Shown here piece after piece: positions 49,125 to 63,802 of a DNA stretch of 64,000 nucleotides. The DNA is from Enterococcus pallens ATCC BAA-351 (GTDB lineage: Bacteria; Bacillota; Bacilli; Lactobacillales; Enterococcaceae), in contig NZ_ASWD01000002.1 of assembly GCF_000407485.1 (NCBI RefSeq), positions 248,001-312,000 on the forward strand, given 5' to 3'. The notes under the pieces are model-generated. The model ran no database searches. It was not told the DNA's origin and saw only the letters and a program-made list of their open reading frames with translations. Both the position numbers and the translations under genes were made by a program. Every line of letters starts with the position of its first letter. Position 1 is the first letter of the stretch.

Positions 49125-50007
49125 TCTAGAAAACGCCATTGTCAGCTGTGCTGAAAAAGCGCTGTGGCTGGAGGTAGCTTTAACGCCTAAGCCGGGACTG
49201 GTGGACCGAGTGACCAACGGCGCCCACAACGATATGGACTTTACTACCTTTATTCACAGTATTGTCAGTCTGCGTCCATTTCTGCAAAACTATTTTGAAT
49301 TAGGCTATCAGCATACCGGCAGCCTACCTGATTTGTTCAATCAGCTAAGACAAACCGGCAGCTTAGCTGAAGAAGCTATGCTGACAGCAACAAAGGGGAT
49401 CAATACCCATAAAGGTGCTAATTTTTCCTTTGCTGTATTGCTAGGCGCTACTGGCTTGTATCTTCAAGGAAAATCAGCTTCTCAGCTGCCCTTCTCACCT
49501 GCCGATACTCAAGCAATTCTAAAGCTGGCTAGTGAATTAACCAAGCCTTTGCTGGTGGAGGATTTTCAACATTTAAATAGGAAGAAAAACCTTTCCTATG
49601 GTGAAAAGCTATACTTAGAAAAAGGCAGTACCGGCATTCGCGGTGAAGCAGCGGCTGGTTACCCGGCTTTAGCAAATGTTCTGCTGCCCTACCTGCGGAC
49701 CAATCAGCAAGAGAAAACCGATATCCTGCTGCTGCGCAGCTTGATTTATTTAATGAGTGAAATTGAAGACAGCAATCTCCTGCATCGCGGCGGCAGCGAA
49801 GCCTTAGAAACCGTTCGTAAAGAAAGCAAAAAAATTCATCAAGCAGCTCTTTTAGAAAAAGAATTGCTTAATGAACTCACAAATTATGATAAACTATTAA
49901 CGAAGCGTCATCTTAGTCCCGGAGGTTCCGCCGATTTACTGGCTCTGGGAATTTATTTTGCTCAGCTGGAGGGCTTGTTCTACTCCCCATTTGGCAAAAA
50001 GGTGTAA
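49117..50007 (+). CDS. citG: triphosphoribosyl-dephospho-CoA synthase
   Basis: 296 residues starting at TTG 49117 inside the last codons of citO. Family blocks are LTPKPGLVDRVTNGAHNDMD, TKGINTHKGANFSFAVLLG and RGEAAAGYPALANVLLP. CitG makes the prosthetic-group precursor of CitD from ATP and dephospho-CoA. In E. faecalis it lies at the end of the other cit operon; here it follows citO. Its last 28 bp overlap the convergent response-regulator gene. Confidence 0.9.
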   Translation: MISLENAIVSCAEKALWLEVALTPKPGLVDRVTNGAHNDMDFTTFIHSIVSLRPFLQNYFELGYQHTGSLPDLFNQLRQTGSLAEEAMLTATKGINTHKGANFSFAVLLGATGLYLQGKSASQLPFSPADTQAILKLASELTKPLLVEDFQHLNRKKNLSYGEKLYLEKGSTGIRGEAAAGYPALANVLLPYLRTNQQEKTDILLLRSLIYLMSEIEDSNLLHRGGSEALETVRKESKKIHQAALLEKELLNELTNYDKLLTKRHLSPGGSADLLALGIYFAQLEGLFYSPFGKKV

Positions 50008-50690
50008 CCCAAGCCCCAAATAGTCTTAATGTATCGGGCATCCTTAGGGTCATCTTCAATTTTATTGCGCAGATGATTGATGAACACCATGATCGTATTG
50101 GCATCCATTTCGCCATCTCCCCAGACACTATGGTAGATCTGCTCCTTGGAGAAAACCTGATCGGGGTTCTCCATGAAGAACTGAATCAGCTTGATTTCCT
50201 TTGAGGACAGCTTGATGGGTTCGCCCTTTTTGTACAGCTGATAACGGCTGCGGTCAAAGCGAAAATCCCCCTCAATGATTTCATTCTTATTCTCAGTCGT
50301 CTGATGGTTCTTAAGGATTTTTCCGCGGTCCAGAGTGGCCACGACTTGAGCCTTTAACAAATTCGGTGAAAAAGGCTTGGTCATATAGTAGTCGGCCCCT
50401 ACCTCTAGTCCGTTGATAATGTCCTCTTCATTCTTCTTACCACTAAGAAAAATGATTGGAACAACCTGATCCTGTTCTCTAATCAGCTGGGCCAAATGAT
50501 AGCCGTCATTGTCATGCTCCAGACTGATATCTAGAATAAACAGGTCAAACTTGACACGACTCATAATATCAACCGTTTTTTCCACTGAGTCGCTTTGATA
50601 AATTAAAATACCTGTTGATTGTAATGATTTCCAAATTAAACGCCGAATGGCTGAATCGTCGTCTACAACCAAAATCTTTTCGTTTCTCAC
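49980..50690 (-). CDS. OmpR-type response regulator
   Basis: 236 residues. The receiver (1-~120) has KILVVDDDSAIRRLIWKSLQ, phospho-Asp in LFILDISL and the Lys in MTKPF. A winged helix (~145-235) includes LSSKEIKLIQFFMENPDQVF and YIKTIWGLGYTF. It is divergent from a Cache-type sensor kinase with about 55 bp between start codons, so they form a pair. The 3' end overlaps citG in antisense by 28 bp. The link to citrate is positional only. Confidence 0.88.
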   Translation of the reverse strand: MRNEKILVVDDDSAIRRLIWKSLQSTGILIYQSDSVEKTVDIMSRVKFDLFILDISLEHDNDGYHLAQLIREQDQVVPIIFLSGKKNEEDIINGLEVGADYYMTKPFSPNLLKAQVVATLDRGKILKNHQTTENKNEIIEGDFRFDRSRYQLYKKGEPIKLSSKEIKLIQFFMENPDQVFSKEQIYHSVWGDGEMDANTIMVFINHLRNKIEDDPKDARYIKTIWGLGYTFLPNGE

Positions 50691-50744
50691 ATTCGTTCCT
50701 CCTAATGATGGGTGGATATTTCTTTTTTTCGGAAAGGATCATTT

Positions 50745-52565
50745 ATGAATAAACCTTCAAATAAATGGTTGATTATCAGCCTAATCAGCATCCTCTGCTT
50801 AACAATAATTGGGATTGTCGTGACGGCGACTACCTATCGCAGCACACAGAAGCATGCGCTGAAAATGGGAACTGATCAGCTAATTAAAATAAACGATTAT
50901 GCAATCAATATTCTTACGTTAGAAATTGAGTCTTACTCCTTGTCGCTGGAGGATTATGCCTCCAATGTCTTTTTTGACGATACACCGCTGGAATTAACCA
51001 AAACCGAACAAATCGAAAACAGCTTAAGCAATAAATCAGCCGCTATTACGGGGCTTTATCTGCTGGATTTGCAAGGGAACCTGCTAGACGGCAAGTCATT
51101 TGAGAACAAAACCTTTACTTCTCAAGCTGAATTGCCGGCAGTGATAAAAAAGGACAGCTATTTTTCGAAAGCCTTAAAGGGGCAGGTAGATCAAAATGGC
51201 GACAGCTACTTTGAAGCTGGTCATGCTTATTTAAACCTGTATCGCTTGATAAAAAACAGTCAGAATCAGCCGATTGCACTGCTGATTTTGCCCCTTAATT
51301 TAGAGCAGCTGTATCATTCAACCTTGGATCCAGATGATCAATTCAGCGGCTATACCATGATTAAAGACCGCGATATGAAGGTGCTCATGCACCCCTCCCA
51401 TGAACAAATCAGTTGGTCAATTGTGGAGGATCGTCAAAAAAAATACCCTGATCTTGATTATACCGATCTCGAACGCTTAGAAAAGACGCAATTAGCCAAC
51501 GCTAATGGAACCATGAGCTATTATTCCTATTGGTGGGACAAAAAGGACCCTGCCCGTGCCCGCGTCCTCAAGCTGACTGCTTACCGCTGGATTACCATCG
51601 GAAAAGCCCGCTGGATCGTTGCCACCAATTCTGATTTTTATGAACAAAACGGCATGGCCATCCAAGAAAGTCTGATTATTTTAGGTCTGCTTTGCATCCT
51701 GCTGGCAACGATTTTACTGCTGGCCTTTAGTTTACGAAGCTACTCGCGGCGCAACCAAAGCTACCTTGAAAATTTACGCCTCATTGAACGACAAAAGCTG
51801 ATGAACGAACGGCACTCCCTGGAAAAAAGCATGCTGCAGGAATCCAAACTAGAAACCATCGGCCTGCTGACGACTTCGATTGTTCATGATATGAATAATT
51901 TCTTAACTCCGATGATTGGTAATTTAGAACTAATGATCGAAGAACACCAGCAAAATCCAGAATTAGTCGAGGATCTGCAGGAAGTTTATCATGCTGCCCA
52001 ACGTGGACAGAAGCTTTCTACCAATGTCCTGCGTTTTTCCAAACTGGCCTCTAATACGAAGGAGACCGTTAATATTACCTCCGCCGTTGCCGAAGCAATT
52101 GAAACAATGCGGATTCTGATTCCTAAAAAAGTTCGGCTGACCTTTCAACAGCAGGCTACCGGCTACAGCTATTTTGAAAAAGAAGAGCTGCAGGTAATTC
52201 TGTACAACTTGTTAACCAATGCCTACCAAGCTCGCAAAGCCAATACGGTGATTGATGTTTTGGTTAAACGGGCTGATGAACAGGAATGCCAGCAATTCCA
52301 AAAACATTCGCTGGCTTACAGTACCAAAGACTTTGCCTTAATTCAAATTACCGATAATGGGCCCGGTATCCCGAAAGAAATTGAAGACAAAATCTTCACG
52401 CCCTTCTTCACCACGAAAACTGCCAGTGGTGGTACTGGACTAGGTCTGTTTATTGTTTCCTCGATTATTAAAAAGAACGATTGGCTGCTTTCAGTCACCA
52501 GTTCAGATGCCGGAACCTCCTTTGTTATTGGAATTCCATTGACTGATGACCCGCCAACAACCTAA
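50745..52565 (+). CDS. Cache-type membrane sensor histidine kinase
   Basis: About 606 residues. A first membrane helix (~8-28) and a second (~310-330) enclose an extracytoplasmic domain of about 275 residues with a dCACHE-like look (GLYLLDLQGNLLDGKS, FSGYTMIKDRDMKVLMHP). After a coiled coil comes a kinase core with the phospho-His in SIVHDMNNFLTPMIGNLELM and ATPase boxes (NLLTNAYQA, DNGPGIP, GGTGLGLF). The H-box form recalls DctB/NtrB-like kinases, yet the partner is OmpR-type. ATG 50745 with GGAAAGGA is the better start. A small carboxylate such as citrate is a plausible ligand, inferred from context. Confidence 0.85.
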   Translation: MNKPSNKWLIISLISILCLTIIGIVVTATTYRSTQKHALKMGTDQLIKINDYAINILTLEIESYSLSLEDYASNVFFDDTPLELTKTEQIENSLSNKSAAITGLYLLDLQGNLLDGKSFENKTFTSQAELPAVIKKDSYFSKALKGQVDQNGDSYFEAGHAYLNLYRLIKNSQNQPIALLILPLNLEQLYHSTLDPDDQFSGYTMIKDRDMKVLMHPSHEQISWSIVEDRQKKYPDLDYTDLERLEKTQLANANGTMSYYSYWWDKKDPARARVLKLTAYRWITIGKARWIVATNSDFYEQNGMAIQESLIILGLLCILLATILLLAFSLRSYSRRNQSYLENLRLIERQKLMNERHSLEKSMLQESKLETIGLLTTSIVHDMNNFLTPMIGNLELMIEEHQQNPELVEDLQEVYHAAQRGQKLSTNVLRFSKLASNTKETVNITSAVAEAIETMRILIPKKVRLTFQQQATGYSYFEKEELQVILYNLLTNAYQARKANTVIDVLVKRADEQECQQFQKHSLAYSTKDFALIQITDNGPGIPKEIEDKIFTPFFTTKTASGGTGLGLFIVSSIIKKNDWLLSVTSSDAGTSFVIGIPLTDDPPTT

Positions 52566-52570
52566 CCAAC

Positions 52571-52610
52571 GCCTTTCACAATTCGCTATCGGATTTGTGG
52601 AAGGCTTTTA
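52571..52610 (+). terminator. terminator of the sensor kinase gene
   Basis: GCCTTTCACAA and TTGTGGAAGGC form an 11-bp stem (one G-U) with a T-rich tail. It overlaps the end of the convergent PsiE-like gene. Confidence 0.75.
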
Positions 52611-52998
52611 TTCGTTCTAAGATAAACAATACAAACACTAAAACTAAGATGGACAGTGCCAAAAAGAGTGTTTCGACACCTTCTCCCTGAGCCAGCAGCA
52701 GCTCCCGTAGAATCGCTGTAATACTAATCAAAATCAAGTAACGAACCGGAATATGATGGCCTTCCTTAACATAGCGCAGCAGCATCAAAATAATTTCCAG
52801 CAAAATAAACAACGTAGCAACTTCTTCAATTAAAATCGACAATTCTTCCATTGAAGCTAACGGAATAACATGGGTAATGATGGTAAAAATAGCTTCTCCC
52901 ATAACAATCAAAACCACAATAATTAAAAGCGCTAACAAAAGGTCAATAAAAGAACTGATTCCTTTTTCAAATAATTTAAATTTATTCCCCAAACGCAT
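52576..52998 (-). CDS. PsiE-family membrane protein
   Basis: 140 residues with four hydrophobic segments. The start LFEKGISSFIDLLLALLII and the loop YVKEGHHIPVRYLILISITA with ILRELLL are typical of the phosphate-starvation-inducible PsiE family, whose function is unknown. It is monocistronic and convergent with the sensor kinase. Confidence 0.8.
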   Translation of the reverse strand: MRLGNKFKLFEKGISSFIDLLLALLIIVVLIVMGEAIFTIITHVIPLASMEELSILIEEVATLFILLEIILMLLRYVKEGHHIPVRYLILISITAILRELLLAQGEGVETLFLALSILVLVFVLFILERIKAFHKSDSEL

Positions 52999-53128
52999 TC
53001 CTCCTTATCCTTCCTTTAATTATAACGAAAAAAACCATGCTTTTTTAGCTAAACACAATAAAAAGACAATAAAATTTCTAGGTTTCCATCTCAGCAAACC
53101 TTCAGATTTCAAGATCCTTATAACAAAA

Positions 53129-53176
53129 AAAAGAACAACCACCGCTGAGTATAACACAAGCGATGATTATTCTTTT
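53129..53176 (-). terminator. terminator of the seven-gene PASTA/ABC operon
   Basis: AAAGAACAACCACCGCT and AGCGATGATTATTCTTT form a 17-bp stem. Every imperfect pair becomes G-U on minus-strand RNA, where a U-run follows. This directionality fits the PASTA operon. Confidence 0.75.
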
Positions 53177-53218
53177 CATAATTACTAGTCATTTTGCTAT
53201 TAAGGCTATAAACAACTT

Positions 53219-54634
53219 TTATTCTTGTCCTTGAGTATCTCCTTGGGACTCGCCGCTTCCGCCCTGCTGCTGATTGTTGCTGTTAGGAATACTATCTGCT
53301 GAGCCTAAATTTCCTAAACTAATATCCAGTGAAACTGTATAGTCCAGTGGCAGATAAACATTGCGGGTACTCATGCCCACCACGGTTCCTTTTGGCTGAT
53401 CAGAATCCACATGACGGATGACATAATGAATATTGGCTCCTTTAGATTGAAACTCATTGTAAAAATACTTCTGCAAATCGCCTTCAACCGTCGTTCCTCT
53501 AAGATCCTTTAAATACGGTTGTCCCAATGAATACAATACTTGAACCCGTAAATCATTTTTAGCGTTTAGTACTGTCCCGGCAGCAACACTTTGAGAAACC
53601 AGCTGACCATACGGCAGATCGTTGGTATAAATCCCTTTTGCTTGAACCTGAACACCTTCGACTGCATTGGCGGCATCTTCTAAGCTGTAGTCTGCAAAGT
53701 TGGGAATCGTGAACCCTTTGCCTAGTGACACAACGACTGTCATGGCATCCTTTTTCGCAATTTTTTCGTCCTTCGAGAGATTTTGCGAAATAATGCTGTC
53801 TGCCGGTACATCGTTGGAGGTCGCTTCTTCGTAGGTCACATTAATTTCATTGGTTTTTGCCCAGGATTCTACTTCTCCCCGGGTTTTGCGAATGAAATCC
53901 GGCACTGCAATATTCTTCTTGTAGGTTTCCTTCCCTTTTGAGTAGAAGACCTTAGCAGCATCCTTGCGTCGATAATTTTGGTTGGTTACCTCAGGGTTGG
54001 CAATCTCAAAATTAAGATACTTCCCTTTCTCAGCTGTATCGCTATATTCCTCGATCAACGAAATATTGGTTGCCTGATGTTCCTTGATCCAATTTTCCGC
54101 CTGCTGCTTGCTTAAGGTTGAAAAGTCCGGCAGCTTCAGCTTCTGGTCAGGATCCGGTCCCTTGCTGGTCGTCAGCTGAAGATTGCCGCCTTTTTTGACC
54201 TGGCTGCCTGCTTTCTGCGATTGAGATAAAATAGTGTTGGCTTCCTTCTTCAGTGAAAATTCCTGTTTAGTCTCCACCTGTATTTTGTTTTCAGTTGCCC
54301 AGACCCGAGCTTCTGACAAGGGCTTGTCCGCGAAATTAGGCATTTTTACATGGCTAATCCGATAGTAGACCATTATACCGACAATTGCAGCAACGATCAT
54401 CCCTATCACAATCCGTCTTTTTTTCTTCTTTTGCTTGGCTTGATAGGTATCGTCTATCTCAGTCATTTCAGTCTTTTGACGGCGGCTTTCGCTTTTTGGT
54501 TCCTCTGAAGCTGACGCTTGTTCAGGCTCCTCCTCGACGGGCTCTTTGGGGAGAGATGATGTTGGCTCATCAGAAGAGGGTTTGTCCGTCTTATGGTAGT
54601 TGTTGCTGTTAAAATTAGAGAGAAAATCACTCAT
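53219..54634 (-). CDS. PASTA-repeat membrane protein without kinase domain
   Basis: 471 residues. A charged, low-complexity cytoplasmic part (1-~75, rich in Glu/Ser/Lys) precedes one membrane helix (~76-95, RRIVIGMIVAAIVGIMVYYR), then four or five PASTA-like repeats outside (~97-445; repeat starts MPNFADKP, LPDFSTLS, VPDFIRKT, IPNFADYS) and a Gly/Gln/Ser tail. PASTA domains bind muropeptides or lipid II in Ser/Thr kinases and PBPs, but no kinase or transpeptidase domain is present. It is the last gene of the operon, overlapping the ATPase gene by 8 bp. It may be a wall-damage or antibiotic sensor for the transporter; that is inference. Confidence 0.85.
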   Translation of the reverse strand: MSDFLSNFNSNNYHKTDKPSSDEPTSSLPKEPVEEEPEQASASEEPKSESRRQKTEMTEIDDTYQAKQKKKKRRIVIGMIVAAIVGIMVYYRISHVKMPNFADKPLSEARVWATENKIQVETKQEFSLKKEANTILSQSQKAGSQVKKGGNLQLTTSKGPDPDQKLKLPDFSTLSKQQAENWIKEHQATNISLIEEYSDTAEKGKYLNFEIANPEVTNQNYRRKDAAKVFYSKGKETYKKNIAVPDFIRKTRGEVESWAKTNEINVTYEEATSNDVPADSIISQNLSKDEKIAKKDAMTVVVSLGKGFTIPNFADYSLEDAANAVEGVQVQAKGIYTNDLPYGQLVSQSVAAGTVLNAKNDLRVQVLYSLGQPYLKDLRGTTVEGDLQKYFYNEFQSKGANIHYVIRHVDSDQPKGTVVGMSTRNVYLPLDYTVSLDISLGNLGSADSIPNSNNQQQGGSGESQGDTQGQE

Positions 54635-55301
54635 AGCTGACCAACTCGCCTTGTTTTAGGAAGAAGGTTTTATCCGATTGCTTGGCAATTTCCTTGGAAT
54701 GGGTAACCACAATCACACATTTATTGTGAGTGAAGGCCAGATCCTTGAAGATATCCACAATTTCCTGCTCCATTTCTTCATCCAAGTTGCCGGTGGGCTC
54801 ATCCGCCAAAATGATATCCACATTCGTCGATAATGCCCGAGCAATCGCTACCCGCTGCTGCTCTCCCCCTGAAAGCTGTGTCACTAATCGGTCCGCCTTC
54901 GTCTTGGTAATACCAATATAATCCAACAGATTGTAAGCTACCTCCTGTTGAGCTGCTGGTAATTTATTATCTGTAATGGTCATAGCCACCAAAACATTTT
55001 CCAAAGCAGTCAAATAGGGAACCAAGTTGTAATTTTGGAAAATAATACTAATATCATCTCTGCGATACTCATCGTAGCCAATTTCTTTAATATTCTTATC
55101 GTGATAAAGAATTTGTCCGGACTTTGGTTCGTCCAACGCACTAATCAGTGATAAAAAAGTCGTTTTTCCTGAACCTGAATCACCTAAAATAGTATAAAAC
55201 TGTCCCTGCTCAAAGCTAATCGAGGTATCCTGCAGAATAATCCGTTTTTGATCGCCATCCTGGTAAAAATAGCTTACGTTTTTTGCTTTTAAAATTGTCA
55301 T
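54627..55301 (-). CDS. ABC transporter ATPase (MacB/LolD-like)
   Basis: 224 residues with complete motifs: Walker [11 protein letters not shown]-loop IIFQNYNLV, signature LSGGEQQR, Walker [13 protein letters not shown] and H-loop VVTHS. It belongs to the LolD/MacB/FtsE group that drives FtsX-type permeases rather than pore-type importers. It should power the adjacent FtsX-like permease, 12 bp upstream. Confidence 0.92.
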
Positions 55302-55313
55302 CTAGTTTTCCTC

Positions 55314-56783
55314 CTACATCATGATTTTCTTTGGATTTAGGCGCATCACGTAGGTCAGCGGTAAGACAGCTGACAATAATACGGTAGCTAATCCTGAAAC
55401 AAGGAACGTCACAATATAAGACAAGGAGAACGTCACTTCATAATTGTTGATGACATCATCGGTCGTTAGACCAGAGCCTAGACTTTGGCTGCCAGCCACA
55501 ATCATCTGACTCCCTGCAGCACTTTGAACCTCGGCCAAGGCATCGCTGGAAACCAAAGATTCTGAGATCAGTTTTCCTAAGAAATTACCGGTCACTAACG
55601 ACAGACACATCGCCACCAAACTAATCACTAACAGCTCCAAAACAACCTGACGCATAATATTCTTGCGGCGCTCGCCTAAGGAAAGGTAAATGCCCCACTC
55701 ATGCTTTCTATCTCGTAAGAATAGAACCACCACTAACGAAATAATCAGTAAAGAGGCAATAATCGATAGAATCACCACATAGCCAGAAATCGTGGACAGC
55801 TTCTTCACACTAGCGCCAACCTTATCAAACTCATCGGTAGAGGCCGTCGCTTTGTAGCCTTCTGGCAGCATGGTACTCATTTCTTCCTTGAAGGCTTCGA
55901 CATCATCGGGACTTTTCAAGGTATAAATTGGAGTAATTTGATCAGTGCTGCTGGCATCATCATAAGCTGCTGGATCAATTTCTTTGCCCTTTTCAAACTC
56001 AGCTTGGGTAATGGATTTCACCAACTTATTGGGCATGTACGCCGTATTAAACTGATCCATTTCCATGAATTGCTCTTGAATCCCGCCACCTTTGCCATCG
56101 TTTTTCTTTTTATCTAATTTAATTGGTTCAAAAAGGCCGACGATCTTCACTGAATGCTTCAATGATTCCTGAGAATCGGTACTGCCATCTGCTTTTTGCG
56201 AAACAAACGTGGTGTCCAGCACCATTTGATCACCGACACTTAAGCCGTTCTCATCGGCAACCTTTTTAGAAATCACCGCCGTTGATTGACCATTTTTGAT
56301 ATCCTCCTGTGACGGGAAGCTGCCTTCTACCAGCTTGACTTTTTTATTTTTAAAATCTGCCGGCTCGGTCTTATTGCTGCCCTTTAACGTCAGCATATTC
56401 ATCCCGCCGTTGATACTAATACTATCCTGTTCTAACTGATAAGTTTTAAAGGAATCCAACGTAAGATAACCTGTGTAGCTGTAATCGTAATCCTTCACAT
56501 AAGAAGATTCACCAATCTTTTTAACAAGCTCTTCTTTTAGAGGCTCCGGCCCCTTCATAGCTGCCGTTGAATCGCTACCCTGCATCAGCTTATCCAAGTC
56601 CACCTCAGCCGAGACGGTTGCCCCCAGCTGCTGCTTCATTTTTTTCTCCACATTTCCTGTAGACTGCTGAATTGCAATCGCTCCGGCAATGACATTTCCT
56701 AAAACAAAAATTACGGCAAAAAGAATCAATGATTTCCCTTTTCTCCGACTGACACTGCTCCATGCTCGCTTCCAATAATTCAT
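55314..56783 (-). CDS. FtsX/MacB-type ABC permease
   Basis: About 489 residues from ATG 56783 (AAAGGAAAG upstream; the frame to 56861 has no such site). An N-terminal helix (~15-40) is followed by a large extracytoplasmic domain (~40-340) and three more helices (~345-490). This is the MacB/FtsX arrangement. The last helix pair begins YVTFLVSGLATVLLSAVLPL. Such permeases drive mechanical release of lipoproteins, peptides or antimicrobials rather than pore transport. Confidence 0.88.
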   Translation of the reverse strand: MNYWKRAWSSVSRRKGKSLILFAVIFVLGNVIAGAIAIQQSTGNVEKKMKQQLGATVSAEVDLDKLMQGSDSTAAMKGPEPLKEELVKKIGESSYVKDYDYSYTGYLTLDSFKTYQLEQDSISINGGMNMLTLKGSNKTEPADFKNKKVKLVEGSFPSQEDIKNGQSTAVISKKVADENGLSVGDQMVLDTTFVSQKADGSTDSQESLKHSVKIVGLFEPIKLDKKKNDGKGGGIQEQFMEMDQFNTAYMPNKLVKSITQAEFEKGKEIDPAAYDDASSTDQITPIYTLKSPDDVEAFKEEMSTMLPEGYKATASTDEFDKVGASVKKLSTISGYVVILSIIASLLIISLVVVLFLRDRKHEWGIYLSLGERRKNIMRQVVLELLVISLVAMCLSLVTGNFLGKLISESLVSSDALAEVQSAAGSQMIVAGSQSLGSGLTTDDVINNYEVTFSLSYIVTFLVSGLATVLLSAVLPLTYVMRLNPKKIMM

Positions 56784-56826
56784 TTGCTTTCCTTTCACTC
56801 GCCGAACAGTGTTGTACTCCCCCAGT

Positions 56827-57489
56827 TTACTGTTCTTTGATAAATAGTAGTTTTCCTCCATTCAAACCCCAAAGTTCATCAGCAAATTTGATCGTCGTGT
56901 GCGACTGTGAAGCGATAATTAAGCATTTTTCTTTTTGCCGGCAAAATTCAGACAGTTCCTCTAGCGTTTCCTCGATGGCCAGCTCTGAAAACAATTTGGA
57001 CGGCTCATCCAGCAGCACTAGCGGCGCTTTGCTGGCCATTACTTTAGCCAAGCTCACCAGCTGCTGAGTTCGTTTATCCAGCTTGTTCACTGTCGTCTTG
57101 ATTTGTTTCGGCGTTAATCCTACCTGTTGAAGAATAGTCGTCAGCTCACTAATCGCCACTTCCTGTTGGGCAATGGTTGCTTCCAATGCCAAATTAGCCA
57201 GCGGCGTATCCTTAACCAGACTGCCTGTTTGAAAAAGACAGCTGACCTTGCGTGCTCGATAATCGTCCCGGTTTATCGCGGTCAGATTTTGTCCATCAAA
57301 CGTGATCGCCCCTTCTGAACAGGTCTTCAAACCAGCCAATAAATAAAGCAGCGTAGTTTTGCCAGACTGAGCATGGCCTAAAATCACATACACCTTGCCT
57401 GGTAAAAATTCCGCATTCAACTGATGAATAAGTTCAATTGCTGGTTTATTGGTAGAATAGCTGACATTTTTCAGTAAAAGCTGTCTCAT
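56827..57489 (-). CDS. second ABC ATPase, degenerate signature motif
   Basis: 220 residues. Walker A (LGHAQSGKTT) and Walker B (LVLLDEPSKL) are good, but the LSGGQ signature is replaced by KLDKRTQQ and the H-loop reads ASQSH instead of a THD form. ATPase pairs with one broken signature are known in heterodimeric ABC exporters, so it may be the regulatory half of a pair with the complete ATPase. It overlaps the next permease gene by 4 bp. Confidence 0.85.
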   Translation of the reverse strand: MRQLLLKNVSYSTNKPAIELIHQLNAEFLPGKVYVILGHAQSGKTTLLYLLAGLKTCSEGAITFDGQNLTAINRDDYRARKVSCLFQTGSLVKDTPLANLALEATIAQQEVAISELTTILQQVGLTPKQIKTTVNKLDKRTQQLVSLAKVMASKAPLVLLDEPSKLFSELAIEETLEELSEFCRQKEKCLIIASQSHTTIKFADELWGLNGGKLLFIKEQ

Positions 57490-58760
57490 ATGCTTCTCCT
57501 TAACTGAAAAGAATACTCACCAAAGACAAAAATCATTCGGCTGGTTAATCCCACAATCACCAAAAGCATACTCGCAAAGTACGGCAATAAAAATTTCAAA
57601 AATTTACTATTTTCCAGTAATTGGCGAATTTCAGCAGCAGACAAATTTGCCTGCTTGATGGTGATTAAGGGAATCTGAGTGGTGCTAGTCTGGCGCAGGC
57701 CCCTTAACCAGTTTGCTACCAGGCCTTCACTAATGAAGCTGGCACAGACATAGGCTAAGCAAGAACTAAGCAGGGCAATCAATGTAATCTCAAGGATATT
57801 GCTGCCAATCAGCTGCATCGGCCGCATTCCCATCAAACGCAGTGCGAAAATATCTGATTCCCGCCGCTTGAATAGCTGACTATAAAACAGGACCACAAAG
57901 AATAAACTCAAAACTCCGGCAGCAATCACCCCATTCAACAGCAATTCTTGTTGACTGACAAAAGAGTCAAAAACCTGCAGATACTCCTGATCAGCGTAAA
58001 TCTGGTACTGATCAAACGCGGGCAATTTACGCAGCTCTTTTTCAAACGCACGAGCAGCCTGCTGACTACTTAAACGCACCGTTACCGTATTGAAGCTGCT
58101 TTGTTTCCCTTCCGCTAAGTATTCGTTTGTTTGCAGATTGATGAATATTCCACCAAAAACCTCCTGCAGCTCCTGCTTGCCGGAAACAATCCCGACAATT
58201 TTCAGCTTTTTGCTGCCATTACCGATACTTAATTCATCTCCCAGCTTCAGCTTGTTGCCTTTAGCAACCTGTTCTGTCACTAGACAGGTGCCCTGCTCTA
58301 ATGGCAGCTCTCCTTGAAAGGATACCTTCTTTGATGCCTGAAAATATCTTTTCAACGAAGCATTGTCCAAAGCAGTCACCCCCATTTGAGGAGTTCTCAT
58401 TGTGCTGACAGCACCGGAATGAACGGTCTCAACATTTTCGCCCGCATCCATAACCAGACCTGTAACTTCCACCGCTGAGTAGCCCATCAATACGCTTTCT
58501 TCAACATTAGGCAATTCATTTAATGCTTGTAAATCGGCTTCATTCAAATTTGTGACATGCTCTTGTTTTTCAAAATCTGGTTTCACGTTTATCAGCGTGT
58601 CGGTTTGTTTTTTCGTTTCCGCCAGCGAATGTTCCACCGCCCCATAGACCTGCAGCAGGCAAAAGAAACTCAGCAGTATGCCAAAAAAAAGCAAGCCGAT
58701 GAAAAAATCATTACGCTTATTCCGTTTCAGATTTAAAAAAGCATGTTGGATGAACATCAT
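57486..58760 (-). CDS. second FtsX-type ABC permease
   Basis: About 424 residues. Layout as in MacB/FtsX: one N-terminal helix (~17-40), an extracytoplasmic domain (~40-270) and three C-terminal helices, with FALRLMGMRPMQLIGSNILE as the coupling region. The start has GGAGGAAA before ATG 58760/58757. Together with the other permease it resembles the Vex1/Vex3 pair in pneumococcus. Confidence 0.85.
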   Translation of the reverse strand: MMFIQHAFLNLKRNKRNDFFIGLLFFGILLSFFCLLQVYGAVEHSLAETKKQTDTLINVKPDFEKQEHVTNLNEADLQALNELPNVEESVLMGYSAVEVTGLVMDAGENVETVHSGAVSTMRTPQMGVTALDNASLKRYFQASKKVSFQGELPLEQGTCLVTEQVAKGNKLKLGDELSIGNGSKKLKIVGIVSGKQELQEVFGGIFINLQTNEYLAEGKQSSFNTVTVRLSSQQAARAFEKELRKLPAFDQYQIYADQEYLQVFDSFVSQQELLLNGVIAAGVLSLFFVVLFYSQLFKRRESDIFALRLMGMRPMQLIGSNILEITLIALLSSCLAYVCASFISEGLVANWLRGLRQTSTTQIPLITIKQANLSAAEIRQLLENSKFLKFLLPYFASMLLVIVGLTSRMIFVFGEYSFQLRRSI

Positions 58761-58800
58761 CACCATTTCCTCCTACCTCTGCATACTAGCAAATCAATTG

Positions 58801-59901
58801 TTAACTCTGTGTTAACTCTCCAGCACTGGGAAAAGTTAAATAAAAGGTCGATCCCTGCTGCTCTTCACTTTCCAAATAAACAAAGCCTTTACACAGGCTG
58901 CACACATGCATGACTACTGACAATCCAATTCCATAGCCATCCTGCTTCAAGCCATGAATCCGATAATTATGAGCAAATATTTCTGCTTGCTTCTTTTTAG
59001 GAATTCCAGCCCCCTGATCGGCTACCTTCAACAGCACACTGCCCTTTTTATTTTCCACCGATACCGTAATCGGCTGATCCTCGCCATACTTAATAGCATT
59101 GTCCACTAAATTAGAAATCGCCCGATAAATCCAACGATCCTTGCCGTAAATCAAGGCCGGCAGCTCCTCATCAAACTCAAAATGCAGCTGCTGATAATTC
59201 CGTTTATACAAATCACAAACCTCCGCACTAATCATCGCCACATCCACCAGCTCCTCAGTTAAATCCCCTTCATTGTTGGACAAGGTTAAAATATCGTCAA
59301 TGCTGTCGGTCAAACGATCCAAGACCTGCAAATTGGCCTGCCCTGCAGCCTCCAGCTCAAGATTGGTTCGCAAAATAGCAATCGCATTTTTCTGTTCATG
59401 AGTTAAGTAACTGTTTAAGCGCTTGTAGTCAGCCAAATGGCCATCAAATTTCTGCTTCAAATTCTCAAAAGCACTAGAAACTGCTTCATCCTTCACACTG
59501 CCTTGAGACAGCTGCTCAATAAAATTCATGTCGTGAGTGATCGCCAAAACCTGCGAACCATATATTTTTCGCAAAACCGCCCACAGTACAAACGTAAGCA
59601 GCAAAATAACCCCACAGATCCCTAAAGCAATCGACGGCAAATATTTAAAATATTCCTTCATGTAGATATTGTCCAAGGTCTCACTGCTGACTGCCAGCTT
59701 GGAAACGGTCAAACTCTCATCACTACTGACCTCAATTTGAGCCTGCTCCATATTTTCTACAAAAAAAGTGTCGCCTAACGAATCAGCGACATTCATTTGA
59801 ACAATATTGGTTCGCAGTAAAACAAAGCTGGAAATCAACACAGCCGTAACCAGCAGCGAAAAGACCAGCATGACTAAGGTCATTTTAAAATTTAATCGCA
59901 T
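58801..59901 (-). CDS. sensor histidine kinase (VncS-like)
   Basis: 366 residues. Two membrane helices (~8-28 and ~88-110) flank a short outer loop of about 60 residues. The H-box has THEQKNAIAILRTNLELE, a form seen in VncS-like kinases, and an ATPase core follows (NLVDNAIKYG, DQGAGIPKK, GYGIGLSVV). The small sensor loop suggests it listens to a transporter or membrane stress rather than a soluble ligand. It overlaps the response-regulator gene by 10 bp. Confidence 0.88.
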   Translation of the reverse strand: MRLNFKMTLVMLVFSLLVTAVLISSFVLLRTNIVQMNVADSLGDTFFVENMEQAQIEVSSDESLTVSKLAVSSETLDNIYMKEYFKYLPSIALGICGVILLLTFVLWAVLRKIYGSQVLAITHDMNFIEQLSQGSVKDEAVSSAFENLKQKFDGHLADYKRLNSYLTHEQKNAIAILRTNLELEAAGQANLQVLDRLTDSIDDILTLSNNEGDLTEELVDVAMISAEVCDLYKRNYQQLHFEFDEELPALIYGKDRWIYRAISNLVDNAIKYGEDQPITVSVENKKGSVLLKVADQGAGIPKKKQAEIFAHNYRIHGLKQDGYGIGLSVVMHVCSLCKGFVYLESEEQQGSTFYLTFPSAGELTQS

Positions 59902-60560
59902 AGCTGATACCCCTTTCCTCGGATGTTCTTCAATACTTCCTTACCTGCTGCATCCCCTAATTTCTTTTTCAAGCGAGCCATATGCACCCGCAGCACCGAG
60001 GAAAAAGGATCAAAATCCTCGTCATAAACATGCTCTGCAATTTTCATCACCGGTACAATAGCCGGGTAATTTTCCGCAATACACAACAAAATATCAAATT
60101 CCTTCGGCTTCAGCTCAATTACCTGGCCGCTATAAGATACCTCACGACAAACCGGATTTACCACCAAATCGCCAATCGTAATTTGCGGCGTTGTTCGACC
60201 ATGGAACCGGCGAATAATCGCCCGCAGACGCGCATTCAGCTCCAACAGCTCAAAGGGCTTGACCAAATAATCATCTGCACCAAAATCCAACCCCTTTGCT
60301 CGTTCCTGAATCTCATCTCGAGCCGTAATAATAATAATCGGCGTCTCAATTTCAGCACTTCTTAAAAAGTTAAGGATCTCCAATCCATCCTTATCCGGCA
60401 GGTTTAAGTCTAATAAAATCGCATCGTATTGATTCACAAAGGCCTTCTCTTCTCCTGCTATGCCAGTATAAGCCGCATCAACGGAAATATTTTCCCGCTC
60501 CAGCCCAGCCTTCACCGTATTCGCCAGCTCAATACTATCTTCAATCATCAATACTCTCAT
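59892..60560 (-). CDS. OmpR-type response regulator (VncR-like)
   Basis: 222 residues: receiver (RVLMIEDSIELANTVKAGL, phospho-Asp in AILLDLNLPDKDG, LVKPFE) and winged helix (ELKPKEFDILLCIAENYPAI, VLRVHMARLKKKLG). It heads the operon RR-kinase-permease-ATPase-permease-ATPase-PASTA and is likely its regulator. An AT-rich promoter region lies upstream. Confidence 0.9.
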   Translation of the reverse strand: MRVLMIEDSIELANTVKAGLERENISVDAAYTGIAGEEKAFVNQYDAILLDLNLPDKDGLEILNFLRSAEIETPIIIITARDEIQERAKGLDFGADDYLVKPFELLELNARLRAIIRRFHGRTTPQITIGDLVVNPVCREVSYSGQVIELKPKEFDILLCIAENYPAIVPVMKIAEHVYDEDFDPFSSVLRVHMARLKKKLGDAAGKEVLKNIRGKGYQLCD

Positions 60561-60671
60561 TTATTGAACACACACCCTTTTCTCTCTTGTTTCTAAGAAT
60601 AGTATAGAAGATTTACCTTTGTCTACGCTTTTTTATTGAAGAAATCGTGAAGACGAGCTTCTAGAACGCTC

Positions 60672-60721
60672 AAAAAGTCTTGAAGAAACTGGATAATTCA
60701 CCAGATTCTTCAAGACTTTTT
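60672..60721. terminator. long bidirectional terminator after the CoA-transferase gene
   Basis: AAAAAGTCTTGAAGAA...CTGG pairs with CCAG...TTCTTCAAGACTTTTT over 20 bp with one mismatch and an 8-base loop. It ends the Etf/CoA-transferase operon and insulates the VncR-like gene. Confidence 0.85.
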
Positions 60722-60727
60722 CGTTTC

Positions 60728-61987
60728 TTAAATCAATTCTTTTTCCCGTAAAATCATAATCTTTTTATCATCATATTTCAAAATCTTCCGTAAAATATCT
60801 TCCGTATCTTGGCCTAAGCTTGGGGCTCCTCGCCAAACTTTACCAGGTGTTTCGCTTAATTTTGGTACCACACCAAAGGCAGTAACTTCCCCACCAGTTG
60901 TTTGATCCTGATACTTAATAAAGTTATCCCGCTTGATGAAGTGTTCATTCTTCAAGCAATCCTCCGCTGTATTGACCCGACTGCAAGGTACCTTCACCTC
61001 CGCCATTGCTTCTTCGATTTCCTCAGCGCTGCGAGCCAAACACCATTCAACTGTCTTTCTATCCAGCTCCTGTCCTTTTTCTGAAGCTACTGCTTCGACT
61101 CCTGAAGAACAATCCTTGTAATTAAAGTAGTCTAAATCAAAGCCAGCGCCCTTAATGAAGCGTTTGTATACACCTGGTCCAAAAGCACCCAAGGCCACAT
61201 CGTATCCATCCTTTGATTTAAACAATCCATAAGGCTGGAAGGCAGCTGATTTATTCCCTGTTCGACCACGAACATTTCCAGTCATGGTATAGGTAGTAAA
61301 GGTATCACACATATACATCGCCATCGCTTCATATTGAGCCACATCGACAATTTGACCTTTTCCTGTTTTTTGTACCCCAGCATAGGCCGCAAAAATACCA
61401 AACACGGTCGCCATTGCCGAGACAAAATCGTTGGTCCAAGGCTTGGCAATCACCGGATCACCATCGGCATCTCCATTTAGGTTCATCCAGCCGGAAAAGG
61501 CTTGTCCAATCATATCGTAGGAAGCGCGGTCACAAAACTCAGGTACCCCGCCAAAAGCTGGATTTCCATACCCGCTAACATGAACAATAATCAGCTTTGG
61601 ATTCACTTTCAGCAACTCTTCATCACGAATTCCTAGTTTTTCCAACCAAACCATATTCTCCATAAAAATATCTGATTCACGAATCAATTCATAAAAAGCT
61701 TCCTTGACCTCAGGGTGCTTTAGATTTAATTCCATCGTCATACTCAGCTTATTACGGCCATCTTGTACCCATGAAGTACTTACCTTTTTTCCATTAACAT
61801 CAGCAAACGGAGCTAATCCTCTTAGCGTATCCCCTACTTTGGGACGTTCAATATGGATCACTTCAGCCCCAAAATCCGCCATTAATGTTGCAGCGTAAGG
61901 CATAGCTACTAAAGATCCAGTATCAACAATCCGAATGCCTGCAAAGGGACCAAATTCAGGAACTAAAAATTCTCTGTTTGTTGTCAT
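60728..61987 (-). CDS. CaiB-like family III CoA transferase
   Basis: 419 residues. The start FGPFAGIRIVDTGSLVAMPY, the Asp at about 187 in KPWTNDFVSA (catalytic Asp of the family) and the end LSETPGKVWRGAPSLGQDTE resemble CaiB, L-carnitine CoA-transferase, more than other family III enzymes. Such enzymes move CoA between carboxylic acids. Next to Etf and acyl-CoA dehydrogenase genes, it probably activates the substrate of the reduction, possibly carnitine or crotonobetaine. The exact acid is uncertain. It lies 17 bp after etfA. Confidence 0.85.
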   Translation of the reverse strand: MTTNREFLVPEFGPFAGIRIVDTGSLVAMPYAATLMADFGAEVIHIERPKVGDTLRGLAPFADVNGKKVSTSWVQDGRNKLSMTMELNLKHPEVKEAFYELIRESDIFMENMVWLEKLGIRDEELLKVNPKLIIVHVSGYGNPAFGGVPEFCDRASYDMIGQAFSGWMNLNGDADGDPVIAKPWTNDFVSAMATVFGIFAAYAGVQKTGKGQIVDVAQYEAMAMYMCDTFTTYTMTGNVRGRTGNKSAAFQPYGLFKSKDGYDVALGAFGPGVYKRFIKGAGFDLDYFNYKDCSSGVEAVASEKGQELDRKTVEWCLARSAEEIEEAMAEVKVPCSRVNTAEDCLKNEHFIKRDNFIKYQDQTTGGEVTAFGVVPKLSETPGKVWRGAPSLGQDTEDILRKILKYDDKKIMILREKELI

Positions 61988-62004
61988 ATTCCTCGCTTCC
62001 TTTC

Positions 62005-63006
62005 TTATCCTTGCTGCTTGCGCTTGTTAATTTCATTAATTACTGCTGGAAGAAGTTCTGTATAATCTGCGACGATACCATAATCGGAAATGGCAAAAAT
62101 TTCAGCAGATTGATTGCGATTTACACTGATAATCGTTTTGGCATTTTGCATACCAACAACGTACTGCACTGCCCCTGAAATACCAATATTAATAATCAAC
62201 TTGGGCTTAACTGTAATACCGCTTTGCCCAATTTGAAGTTCGTGGGTAAACCAGCCTTGATCCACCAGCGGCCGCGTACATCCCACTTCCCCTTGAAGCA
62301 ACTCCGCCAACTCATTCAATAGTGCCAAATCCTGTTGATTCTTAACTCCTCGCCCGCAAGACACAATAATCTCTGCTTCGGTAATCGCGCTGCCTGAAGC
62401 CGATACTGGACAGCTTTCAATGATTTCGTACGCTTCATCGTCCAGCACTTCCACTGCCTCTTCCCTTAATTTCCCTTGAGGATTAACTAAAGGCTCAATT
62501 TTAGAGAACACTCCTGGGCGAACTGTAGCCATCTGAGGTAGTGCGTTTTCAATAACAATCGTACACATAATATTTCCGCCATATGAGGGCTTCTCCTGAA
62601 CCAGCAACCCTTGTTCGTCGATTGATAAATCTAAGCAATCAGCAGTCAATCCCGTTTGCAGCTGACACATGACCCGTGGTGCAAGATCTCTACCTTGTGA
62701 GGTAGCACTTAACAAGACAATCGCTGGCTGGTAGTCTCTAATCAACTTTACCAGTACACGTTCAAAAGTACGTGGTTTATAGTATTTCAACACCTCATCA
62801 TCTACAATTCGTACGATATCAGCTCCGTAACAAAGTAGCTCTTGAGCAGCTTCCTTGATCTGACTGCCTAATAAAATTGCGGTGATTTCTTGATTAGCAG
62901 CTTTCTTCAACTCTAAAGCCTTCGCCAGTAGTTCAAAAGAAGCCTCCAAAACTTTGCCGCCCTTTTGCTCAGCAACCACCCAAATTCCGTTATTCTTTTT
63001 ATCCAT
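62005..63006 (-). CDS. etfA: electron transfer flavoprotein alpha subunit (FixB-like)
   Basis: 333 residues from ATG 63006 (AGGAGG upstream; the longer frame runs into etfB). The N-terminus NNGIWVVAEQKGGKVLEASF and the C-terminal FAD block INIGISGAVQYVVGMQNAKT with FAISDYGIVADYTELLP are clear EtfA. It forms an FAD heterodimer with EtfB and supplies electrons to the acyl-CoA dehydrogenase. It lies 10 bp after etfB. Confidence 0.93.
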   Translation of the reverse strand: MDKKNNGIWVVAEQKGGKVLEASFELLAKALELKKAANQEITAILLGSQIKEAAQELLCYGADIVRIVDDEVLKYYKPRTFERVLVKLIRDYQPAIVLLSATSQGRDLAPRVMCQLQTGLTADCLDLSIDEQGLLVQEKPSYGGNIMCTIVIENALPQMATVRPGVFSKIEPLVNPQGKLREEAVEVLDDEAYEIIESCPVSASGSAITEAEIIVSCGRGVKNQQDLALLNELAELLQGEVGCTRPLVDQGWFTHELQIGQSGITVKPKLIINIGISGAVQYVVGMQNAKTIISVNRNQSAEIFAISDYGIVADYTELLPAVINEINKRKQQG

Positions 63007-63016
63007 GACAGACCTC

Positions 63017-63802
63017 CTATATAATGTGCTGCTCTTCCAAAAGGTCCACCAAACCTGCAGCAAGTTCTTCTATAGTTCCTTCCAGCAACTGCAAATTACC
63101 TGTTTCATGAACCGGCTCATATATCTTGCGCACCGTTGAAGGAGAACCAGACTGACCCACGCGGTCTTCATCACACCCCAAATCCTCATTAGACCAGATA
63201 AATTGCGGTTTTTTACCAGCCTTCATGATATTAATCGGAGTTGCGTAGCGTGGTTCGTTTAGCTCGCTGGTAACGGTCAATAATGTCGGCAGCTTTACCT
63301 TAACAGTTTCCACACAATCATCCAGCAGTCGTTCACATAATAAGAATTGATCCTCTACTTCAATAGAACGAACAAAAGTAACCTGTGGCAACCCCAGCAA
63401 ACTCGCAACAATCGGTCCTGTTTGCCCGGTGTCAGCATCTACTGCATGTCGGCCGAACAAAAGCACGTCTAACGAATCCAGCTTTTCGGCGGCTTTGGCT
63501 AACACATAGCCGGTTGCCAAAGTATCGGCCCCCACAAATTTGCGGTCACTCAACAATACGGCCTCATCACAGCCCATCGCCAAAGCCTTCTTTAAAGCAG
63601 CCTGAGCTTGCATTGGTCCCATTGTTAAAACAGTAACTTTGCCGTCCACCTGTTCCTTTAATTGAAGACCTGCCTCAATGGCATGCAGATCAAACGGATT
63701 AATCGTGCTTTCAATACCTTCTCGCTCCAAATTCCCCGTCTTAGGATCTATTTTTACCTCTACTGTATCTGGTACTTGCTTAATAAAAACAGCTATATTC
63801 AT
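63017..63802 (-). CDS. etfB: electron transfer flavoprotein beta subunit (FixA-like)
   Basis: 261 residues. Typical blocks are VFIKQVPDTVEVKIDPKTG, INPFDLHAIEAGLQLKEQ and GADTLATGYVLAKAAEKL, and GRHAVDADTGQTGPIVASLL near the AMP/FAD site. The second nucleotide is AMP in classical or FAD in bifurcating Etf; sequence alone here does not settle which. It lies 17 bp after the acyl-CoA dehydrogenase gene in the same operon. Confidence 0.93.
   Translation of the reverse strand: MNIAVFIKQVPDTVEVKIDPKTGNLEREGIESTINPFDLHAIEAGLQLKEQVDGKVTVLTMGPMQAQAALKKALAMGCDEAVLLSDRKFVGADTLATGYVLAKAAEKLDSLDVLLFGRHAVDADTGQTGPIVASLLGLPQVTFVRSIEVEDQFLLCERLLDDCVETVKVKLPTLLTVTSELNEPRYATPINIMKAGKKPQFIWSNEDLGCDEDRVGQSGSPSTVRKIYEPVHETGNLQLLEGTIEELAAGLVDLLEEQHII

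Follow-up and report, generated by a model that had tools for sequence, protein, structure and literature searches.

The window analysed in this work is a stretch of 64,000 nucleotides (nt) of Enterococcus pallens ATCC BAA-351 (contig NZ_ASWD01000002.1, positions 248,001 to 312,000; genome of 5.44 Mb), in which we studied a set of seven genes on the minus strand (53219-60560) encoding, from 5' to 3', a response regulator (RR), a histidine kinase (HK), the permease FtsXA, the ATP-binding cassette (ABC) protein ABC1, the permease FtsXB, the ATPase ABC2 and a protein with PASTA repeats. The original prediction, made from the letters of the stretch, had placed seven genes of these families here, in agreement with the list of open reading frames (ORFs) and the Pfam searches. 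The genes and the elements within them are as follows.

59892..60560, minus strand: RR, OmpR-type response regulator of 222 amino acids (aa), with Pfam Response_reg and Trans_reg_C
58801..59901, minus strand: HK, histidine kinase of 366 aa, with Pfam HATPase_c and transmembrane (TM) helices at residues 9-27 and 91-109
57486..58766, minus strand: FtsXA, second MacB/FtsX-type permease (Pfam, alignment, identity table)
56827..57489, minus strand: ABC1, putative pseudo-ATPase subunit, with signature LDKRTQ and the H-loop His replaced by Gln (motif alignment)
55314..56783, minus strand: FtsXB, core permease of predicted type VII, 489 aa (corrected start; the ORF opens at 56861)
54627..55301, minus strand: ABC2, core ATPase with all catalytic motifs (Pfam and motif table)
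54627..54634, minus strand: 8-nt overlap of ABC2 and PASTA, ATGAGTGA, with the ABC2 stop codon within the PASTA start (ORF coordinates)
53219..54634, minus strand: PASTA protein, 471 aa, with a cytosolic tail, one TM helix and five PASTA-like repeats (Pfam, AlphaFold model)
54596..54634, minus strand: conserved cytosolic N-terminal peptide of the PASTA protein, 13 residues (alignment of ORFs from the named loci described below)

These genes had been described as overlapping or closely spaced. In the window, RR and HK overlap by 10 nt, FtsXA and ABC1 by 4 nt, and ABC2 and PASTA by 8 nt. The same spacings recur in the named loci, with -10 between RR and HK in 21 of 21, -4 (18 of 21) or -1 (3 of 21) between FtsXA and ABC1, and -8 in 77 of the 79 ABC2/PASTA pairs. 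FtsXB and ABC1 are not among the overlapping pairs, since the most likely start of FtsXB is 56783, where AAAGGA precedes the ATG, rather than 56861, leaving a gap of 43 nt and no overlap.

The FtsXB-ABC2-PASTA core

The last three genes of the set are linked far beyond E. pallens. We obtained 79 named loci by taking the 80 best among 110 stretches that had been confirmed. Their ORFs were labelled by bit-score cut-offs of our own choice, and in 79 of 81 FtsXB copies ABC2 and then PASTA follow FtsXB directly. A PASTA gene variable or unlinked among relatives was the one outcome named in advance as speaking against the original prediction, and the observed linkage is the opposite. The two exceptions are a contig that ends shortly after ABC2 (L163) and a second copy in E. 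alcedinis; this latter one is a lone FtsXB (L133:12996-14513) located behind a complete cassette, without a following ABC2 or PASTA. The core was found in Enterococcus, Vagococcus, Streptococcus, Granulicatella, Brochothrix and Pilibacter, in the Bacillaceae genera Gracilibacillus, Paraliobacillus, Natronobacillus, Amphibacillus, Aquibacillus and Evansella, and in metagenome-assembled genomes (e.g., L129 and L130). In Brochothrix campestris the PASTA gene appears as two ORFs (L169:11136-12651). A search of a phage collection gave only matches of 23.6%, in two Listeria phage records.

Further searches used either end of the core. With the FtsXB protein, 38 of 60 relatives matched at E 1e-10 or better, and 33 stretches were fetched (L045 and L046 overlap); L035-L058 all carry the order FtsXB-ABC2-PASTA, whereas the stretches L059-L067, whose FtsXB match is below 210 bits, hold no PASTA gene. 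A DNA pattern for the first eight PASTA residues was present in 66 of 395 genomes of the order (3 for the reversed pattern); among 30 loci fetched with it, 28 have ABC2 directly upstream together with PASTA-type repeats, and 2 are chance matches. Likewise, a search of 398 genomes of the class gave 11 loci with FtsXB at E <1e-170, including the window and some genomes already counted, all with the PASTA start behind ABC2, whereas 11 cousin loci (E 1e-61 to 1e-73) showed by eye no PASTA gene within a flank of 1.5 kb. The PASTA gene thus marks this FtsXB family, as strong matches carry it and weaker cousins do not. The cousins (L190-L200) are PASTA-less FtsX-ABC pairs of other Bacilli. Five of the 11 are accompanied, as judged by eye, by what looks like a divergently oriented RR-HK pair, and in size and layout the cousins may resemble YclHI. 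The idea that PASTA is a chance neighbour was discarded in view of the 79/81 linkage and of the 28 of 30 loci found by the independent pattern, and we are highly confident that FtsXB, ABC2 and PASTA constitute one functional unit of three genes.

The PASTA protein carries no kinase domain, with Pfam finding only PASTA in it, and thus falls outside the PASTA kinases; NCBIfam PknB_PASTA_kin scores 126.7 of 450 bits. With PrkC, PknB, StkP and IreK it has in common PASTA repeats in tandem and a single TM helix with a basic stretch next to the membrane, whereas these kinases have a kinase domain, and the genome's own kinase lacks the N-terminal peptide and the juxtamembrane E-x-D-P-x-Y motif of the cassette protein. 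Its parts are arranged as the N-terminal peptide, a long variable linker, the juxtamembrane motif, the TM helix and the repeats. The protein starts with MSDFLSNF, and the pattern M[SNG]DF[LF][STA][NKG]F matches 74 of the 80 PASTA ORFs found in the named loci; E-x-D-P-x-Y, as a loose pattern, is present in 73 of 80. The AlphaFold model is confident for the ectodomain (nearly all blocks >90) and disordered in the tail and the C-terminus. By our own segmentation the ectodomain comprises five repeat-like units, the fifth being divergent, while Pfam gives three significant stretches, and its structural matches are the PASTA parts of Staphylococcus aureus PrkC and Mycobacterium tuberculosis PknB (3py9, 3m9g, 2kui and 5e12). 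A cell-wall link, as originally proposed, is likely from the repeats, and the protein probably binds the wall. Matches to defence systems in PADLOC were read as generic PASTA and ATPase matches and set aside.

The genome holds two further PASTA-bearing frames, namely a 721-aa kinase, whose neighbour is a protein of 247 aa, and an open frame of 724 aa. An origin of the PASTA gene from a recently split kinase was rejected, given that the genome's kinase is intact, that its PASTA part is 25-28% identical to the cassette protein over the matched pieces, and that the cassette PASTA family has an N-terminus of its own. The separate 721-aa kinase, and the kinship in sequence and fold with kinase PASTA regions, would also suit a protein that acts as a decoy or modulator of a PASTA kinase (PknB/IreK), competing for muropeptides, with the ABC machine controlling its exposure. 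We consider this very unlikely: the genome's PASTA kinase lacks both the MSDFLSNF start and the E-x-D-P-x-Y motif, and we saw no kinase gene among the neighbours of the cassette, which were unscreened by family.

FtsXB matches Pfam FtsX (45.8 bits) and MacB_PCD (38.3 bits), both above the cut-off, and displays four TM helices with a large ectodomain between TM1 and TM2, the plan of a type VII permease. In a structure search that included the PDB, its AlphaFold model matched MacB, LolC/E, YknZ, YtrF and FtsX, as well as S. pneumoniae 5xu1. FtsXB is accordingly modelled with the MacB/LolC/YknZ/YtrF-type (type VII) fold. Its partner ABC2 has all motifs intact in 81 of 81 rows, window included, as expected of a type VII ATPase. 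The genome as a whole has 35 FtsX-domain matches at E 1e-5 or better, which looks like a rich set. Structure alignments made in this work (A3 and A4) comprised 53 rows each.

These matches bear on the question of export, which was part of the original prediction and to which we found no pointer. An exporter of a peptide, lipid or drug comparable to MacAB or YknXYZ, in which the PASTA rod replaces the membrane-fusion protein and guides cargo through the wall, would be in line with the likeness of FtsXB to MacB, YknZ and 5xu1, and with the top NCBIfam match of ABC2, a putative bacteriocin exporter ATPase (sub-threshold, 189.4 of 254.85 bits). Such an exporter is nonetheless unlikely in our estimation. 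No membrane-fusion protein family, the third partner of MacAB and YknXYZ, was found by Pfam in a search limited to the seven proteins; among the ORFs of at least 80 aa that flank the cassette, judged by size and unscreened by family, we noticed none that was small and recurrent or that resembled a cargo gene; and the PASTA model looks like beads in a row and forms no tube.

The FtsXA-ABC1 half and the seven-gene form

The upstream permease-ATPase pair has diverged much further than the core. Median pairwise identities are 74% for RR, 56% for HK, 27% for FtsXA, 37% for ABC1, 60% for FtsXB, 81% for ABC2 and 57% for PASTA (window and 19 loci, 190 pairs, with L104 and L115 left out). One of the two ATPases had been noted to lack its signature, and this is true of every copy of ABC1: the glycine pair of LSGGQ is kept in 0 of 22, the His of the H-loop column is lost as well (0 of 22), and Walker A is gone in 6 of 22 (L101, L107, L114, L115, L122 and L155), so that none of the 22 has a complete set of catalytic motifs. 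From its alignment, ABC1 looks like a pseudo-ATPase. Its C-terminal stretch, ADELWGLNGGKLLFI in the window, follows the pattern G[LM]N..KL.FI in 22 of 22. Its conservation in an otherwise drifting protein suggests that it marks a conserved contact.

FtsXA matches MacB_PCD above the cut-off (45.8 bits) and FtsX below it (22.2 bits, cut-off 25.5), and it is homologous to FtsXB (hhalign 99.9%, 366 columns; the FtsXA alignment has 21 of 22 members, L104 being omitted). This homology is no proof of duplication, FtsX permeases being one superfamily. In a tree of 11 of 22 ABC1 rows and 19 of 81 ABC2 rows, the two ATPases form separate groups, ABC1 is not nested in ABC2, and its branches are very long; an origin of ABC1 by duplication of ABC2 stays undecided. 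Classical heterodimeric ABC exporters retain one good ATP site. By its motifs, an ABC1-ABC2 heterodimer would have no complete ATP site on either side, which argues that the working motor would be ABC2 on FtsXB, with FtsXA-ABC1 as a putative non-catalytic subunit.

The seven-gene order was looked for elsewhere and is complete in 20 named loci besides the window, all of them Enterococcus, so that it is not a chance arrangement. The RR-HK pair is present in all 21 named loci carrying ABC1, and directly before FtsXA in 20. Two loci have unusual forms: in E. avium ATCC 14025, FtsXA is found as two ORFs (L104:7026-8278), and Enterococcus sp. PF1-24 has the tandem RR-HK-FtsXB-ABC2-PASTA followed by FtsXA-ABC1-FtsXB-ABC2-PASTA (L115:855-12900), a double cassette that is possibly an intermediate or a rearrangement. 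In an FtsXB plus ABC2 tree (81 rows including the window, quick method, unrooted), rows were labelled solely by whether ABC1 or HK is the gene immediately preceding FtsXB. The 22 rows with ABC1 upstream fall, together with the other L115 copy and an E. casseliflavus copy (L123), into a single clade of 24 (SH-aLRT 100). Rows with the three-gene form are scattered across the remaining branches, and on this basis the four-gene add-on most likely arose once, in Enterococcus, a direction that we infer from an unrooted tree. The basic unit is the three-gene cassette and not the set of seven, as in 58 of 81 rows FtsXB is preceded directly by neither ABC1 nor HK.

The constant presence of RR-HK raises a reading in the manner of BceAB-RS, also an FtsX-superfamily ABC encoded with a two-component pair, in which HK would read transporter activity in antimicrobial sensing and target protection, wall-active peptides or antibiotics would induce the operon and PASTA would direct the complex to damaged wall. 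It would fit the 21 of 21 loci in which the pair accompanies ABC1, as well as the promoter-like sequence before RR, similar in close relatives (by eye). Several features depart from it, and we regard it as distinctly improbable. FtsXB has four TM helices and a TM1-TM2 ectodomain, whereas BceB has ten TM helices in one chain, and HK has about 63 residues between its two TM helices, whereas BceS-type kinases have no extracellular sensing domain (PMC11466899, PMC7828314); the permease plan and the kinase loop led us to reject membership in the BceAB family. In addition, no RR-HK pair immediately precedes the three-gene form. Within HK, H168 is invariant in 17 of 17 aligned kinases, and no Pfam match to HisKA was found.

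The other proposed relative is the pneumococcal vncRS-vex system, to which the original prediction had likened the locus. Vex is a permease-ATPase-permease arrangement with two FtsX permeases and one ATPase, and to our knowledge has no PASTA protein. The likeness, two FtsX permeases plus a two-component pair, is thus loose, and a variant of the vncRS-vex operon, already disfavoured, has in our view next to no probability: two ATPases and PASTA are present here, against one ATPase between two permeases in Vex; a Vex-like permease-ATPase-permease locus exists separately in E. avium and in another genome of the family; and the Vex-like ATPase lies outside the ABC1 and ABC2 groups in the tree, although its position beside ABC1 drew a program warning of possible misplacement. 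Membership was rejected in view of the separate locus. Vex-like loci were seen at L177:2321-5640 and L178:931-7681 (with an RR-HK-like pair in L178), beside transposase-like ORFs. The pneumococcal operon order is given as vex123-pep27-vncRS in PMC6177237. Another comparable system is YtrBCDEF, whose wall-linked operon likewise encodes an FtsX-type permease along with two ATPases; it differs in that YtrB2CD and YtrE2F2 are proposed as separate transporters, with a GntR regulator, and no PASTA protein is named in the accessible part of the source (PMC12772383).

Five plasmid records of E. raffinosus (0.98-1.19 Mb) match the PASTA protein. All seven genes are present in plasmid F162_2 (L204) and in a contig of strain N17 (L103), while the other four plasmid records (L203, L205, L206 and L207) hold a broken RR directly joined to roughly the C-terminal 70% of PASTA; in the stretches fetched from these four, none of the five intervening genes gave a match. 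The joint loss of the PASTA start and the ABC genes fits one system. The remnants in L205-L207 show the same pieces, and the E. raffinosus remnants may reflect a single loss event.

Borders and neighbours of the locus

Three further features delimit the set.

60596..60625, minus strand: promoter-like TAGACA-18-TATTCT upstream of RR (consensus match)
60672..60720, minus strand: terminator-like hairpin separating the CoA-transferase gene from RR, at the upstream border (folding z -7.8)
53126..53177, minus strand: terminator-like hairpin with a T-run 3' of PASTA, downstream border (folding of a 226-nt stretch, z -3.7)

With hairpins on both sides, the downstream PsiE gene (52576-52998) and the upstream CoA-transferase gene lie outside the set, although neither hairpin is listed by a separate consensus scan for promoters and terminators. 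Promoter-like consensus matches in the region are not above chance (15 versus 15.8 in shuffles); the one before RR resembles by eye the sequence at the same place in close relatives. TCTTCA repeats occur before RR in the window and in some relatives with differing spacings, and we claim no RR-binding site. Scans of the window with Rfam and for tRNAs gave no match.

Beside the set, a second response-regulator ORF (minus strand) is divergent from a histidine kinase (plus strand) with a weak dCache match (49980-52565). On the other side, the CoA-transferase gene, of family III (CaiB-like), stands next to an ORF resembling an electron-transfer flavoprotein subunit (60728-63063); these perhaps belong to carnitine-type metabolism. 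The window also contains a 2519-aa ORF on the minus strand (5970-13529).

A candidate wall-tethered type VII machine

The reading that we favour, and to which we give about an even chance, is that of a wall-tethered complex that transmits or senses force. FtsXB, ABC2 and the PASTA protein would assemble in the membrane into a single type VII ABC machine, with the wall-binding PASTA rod as its dedicated partner. Two ABC2 on two FtsXB subunits would hydrolyse ATP and thereby shift the outer domains of FtsXB. PASTA would be held to the complex through its N-terminal cytosolic peptide, its juxtamembrane motif and its single helix, and would couple the movement of FtsXB to peptidoglycan, either sensing strain or pushing on wall enzymes. 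The outcome would be force transmission or sensing at the wall, like FtsEX with its hydrolases, and not export. The cassette of Enterococcus would then have acquired the diverged FtsXA-ABC1 half, with its presumably dead ATPase, and the two-component pair; FtsXA-ABC1 would power nothing, and might instead gate the FtsXB-ABC2-PASTA machine or relay its state to HK, which would tune expression of the operon. The data establish the linkage of the genes, the motifs lost and retained, the predicted fold and the single clade of the seven-gene form; the physical complex, its binding to the wall, the transmission of force, the role of the dead half and the coupling to HK are inferred. The MacB/FtsX-fold ABC class has been described as mechanotransducers (PMC11466899).

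Several observations weigh against this reading or its parts. The complex is predicted from genes and single-protein models, and the full-model TM-scores of FtsXB are modest (query TM-score at most 0.51). Its fold is also compatible with export, because FtsX-fold ABC machines include true exporters, namely MacB and the heme exporter HrtBA. The N-terminal motif is missing in 6 of 80 PASTA ORFs, and its M-S-D is partly forced because the ABC2 stop codon sits in the 8-nt overlap; the residues F-L-S-N-F are free of that constraint. ABC1 keeps remnants with which a heterodimer with ABC2 would be possible, including the signature L-S in 13 of 22, the Walker B D-E in 14 of 22 and a recognisable Walker A in 16 of 22 (15 by a strict pattern), and the L115 copy has a His one column beyond the H-loop position. 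L123 belongs to the seven-gene clade but has none of the four genes of the add-on, and the four E. raffinosus remnants show that the system can be lost. In favour of a link to the wall, one cassette (L116:7486-14489) lies between what we take, from N-termini, to be pyrH-frr- and uppS-cdsA-like genes, uppS encoding undecaprenyl diphosphate synthase, and its tree neighbours have the same flanking genes as judged by ORF size alone. This site may be chance, because other cassettes lie at genes unrelated to the wall, after presumed relA-dtd-like genes (L149) and between presumed glyS- and dnaG-like genes (L159), again from N-termini.

A bolder and more tentative proposal, which we hold to be possible though rather doubtful, is that of a new wall-anchored class of type VII ABC machines in which the PASTA rod replaces the hydrolase or fusion protein and, in Enterococcus, FtsXA-ABC1 is a non-catalytic signalling subunit that reports the state of the machine to HK. 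Each part belongs to a known family. We found no description of an FtsXB-ABC2-PASTA cassette, in which a PASTA protein lacking a kinase domain is joined with a type VII ABC, or of a pseudo-ATPase half with a two-component pair, in the open-licence PMC literature. PASTA repeats in Firmicutes are known mainly from kinases and penicillin-binding proteins; their presence on a dedicated protein that is no kinase and works with a type VII ABC would be a third use of PASTA. The type VII ABCs described in Bacillus subtilis are YclHI, YknYZ, YtrEF, YvrON and FtsEX, and that account contains no mention of 'pasta', nor does its accessible part describe a pseudo-ATPase half (PMC11466899).

According to PMC11466899, several of the B. 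subtilis type VII machines are of obscure function, and the cassette would offer a handle on the role of these machines at the wall. The three-gene core is small and testable, and a specific contact is predicted from its conserved cytosolic peptide of 13 residues; moreover, one genus has the core with and without the signalling add-on, which constitutes a natural experiment. If the proposal is true, ATP-driven motion would be referenced directly to peptidoglycan, and an ABC 'pseudo-transporter' would serve as a sensor.

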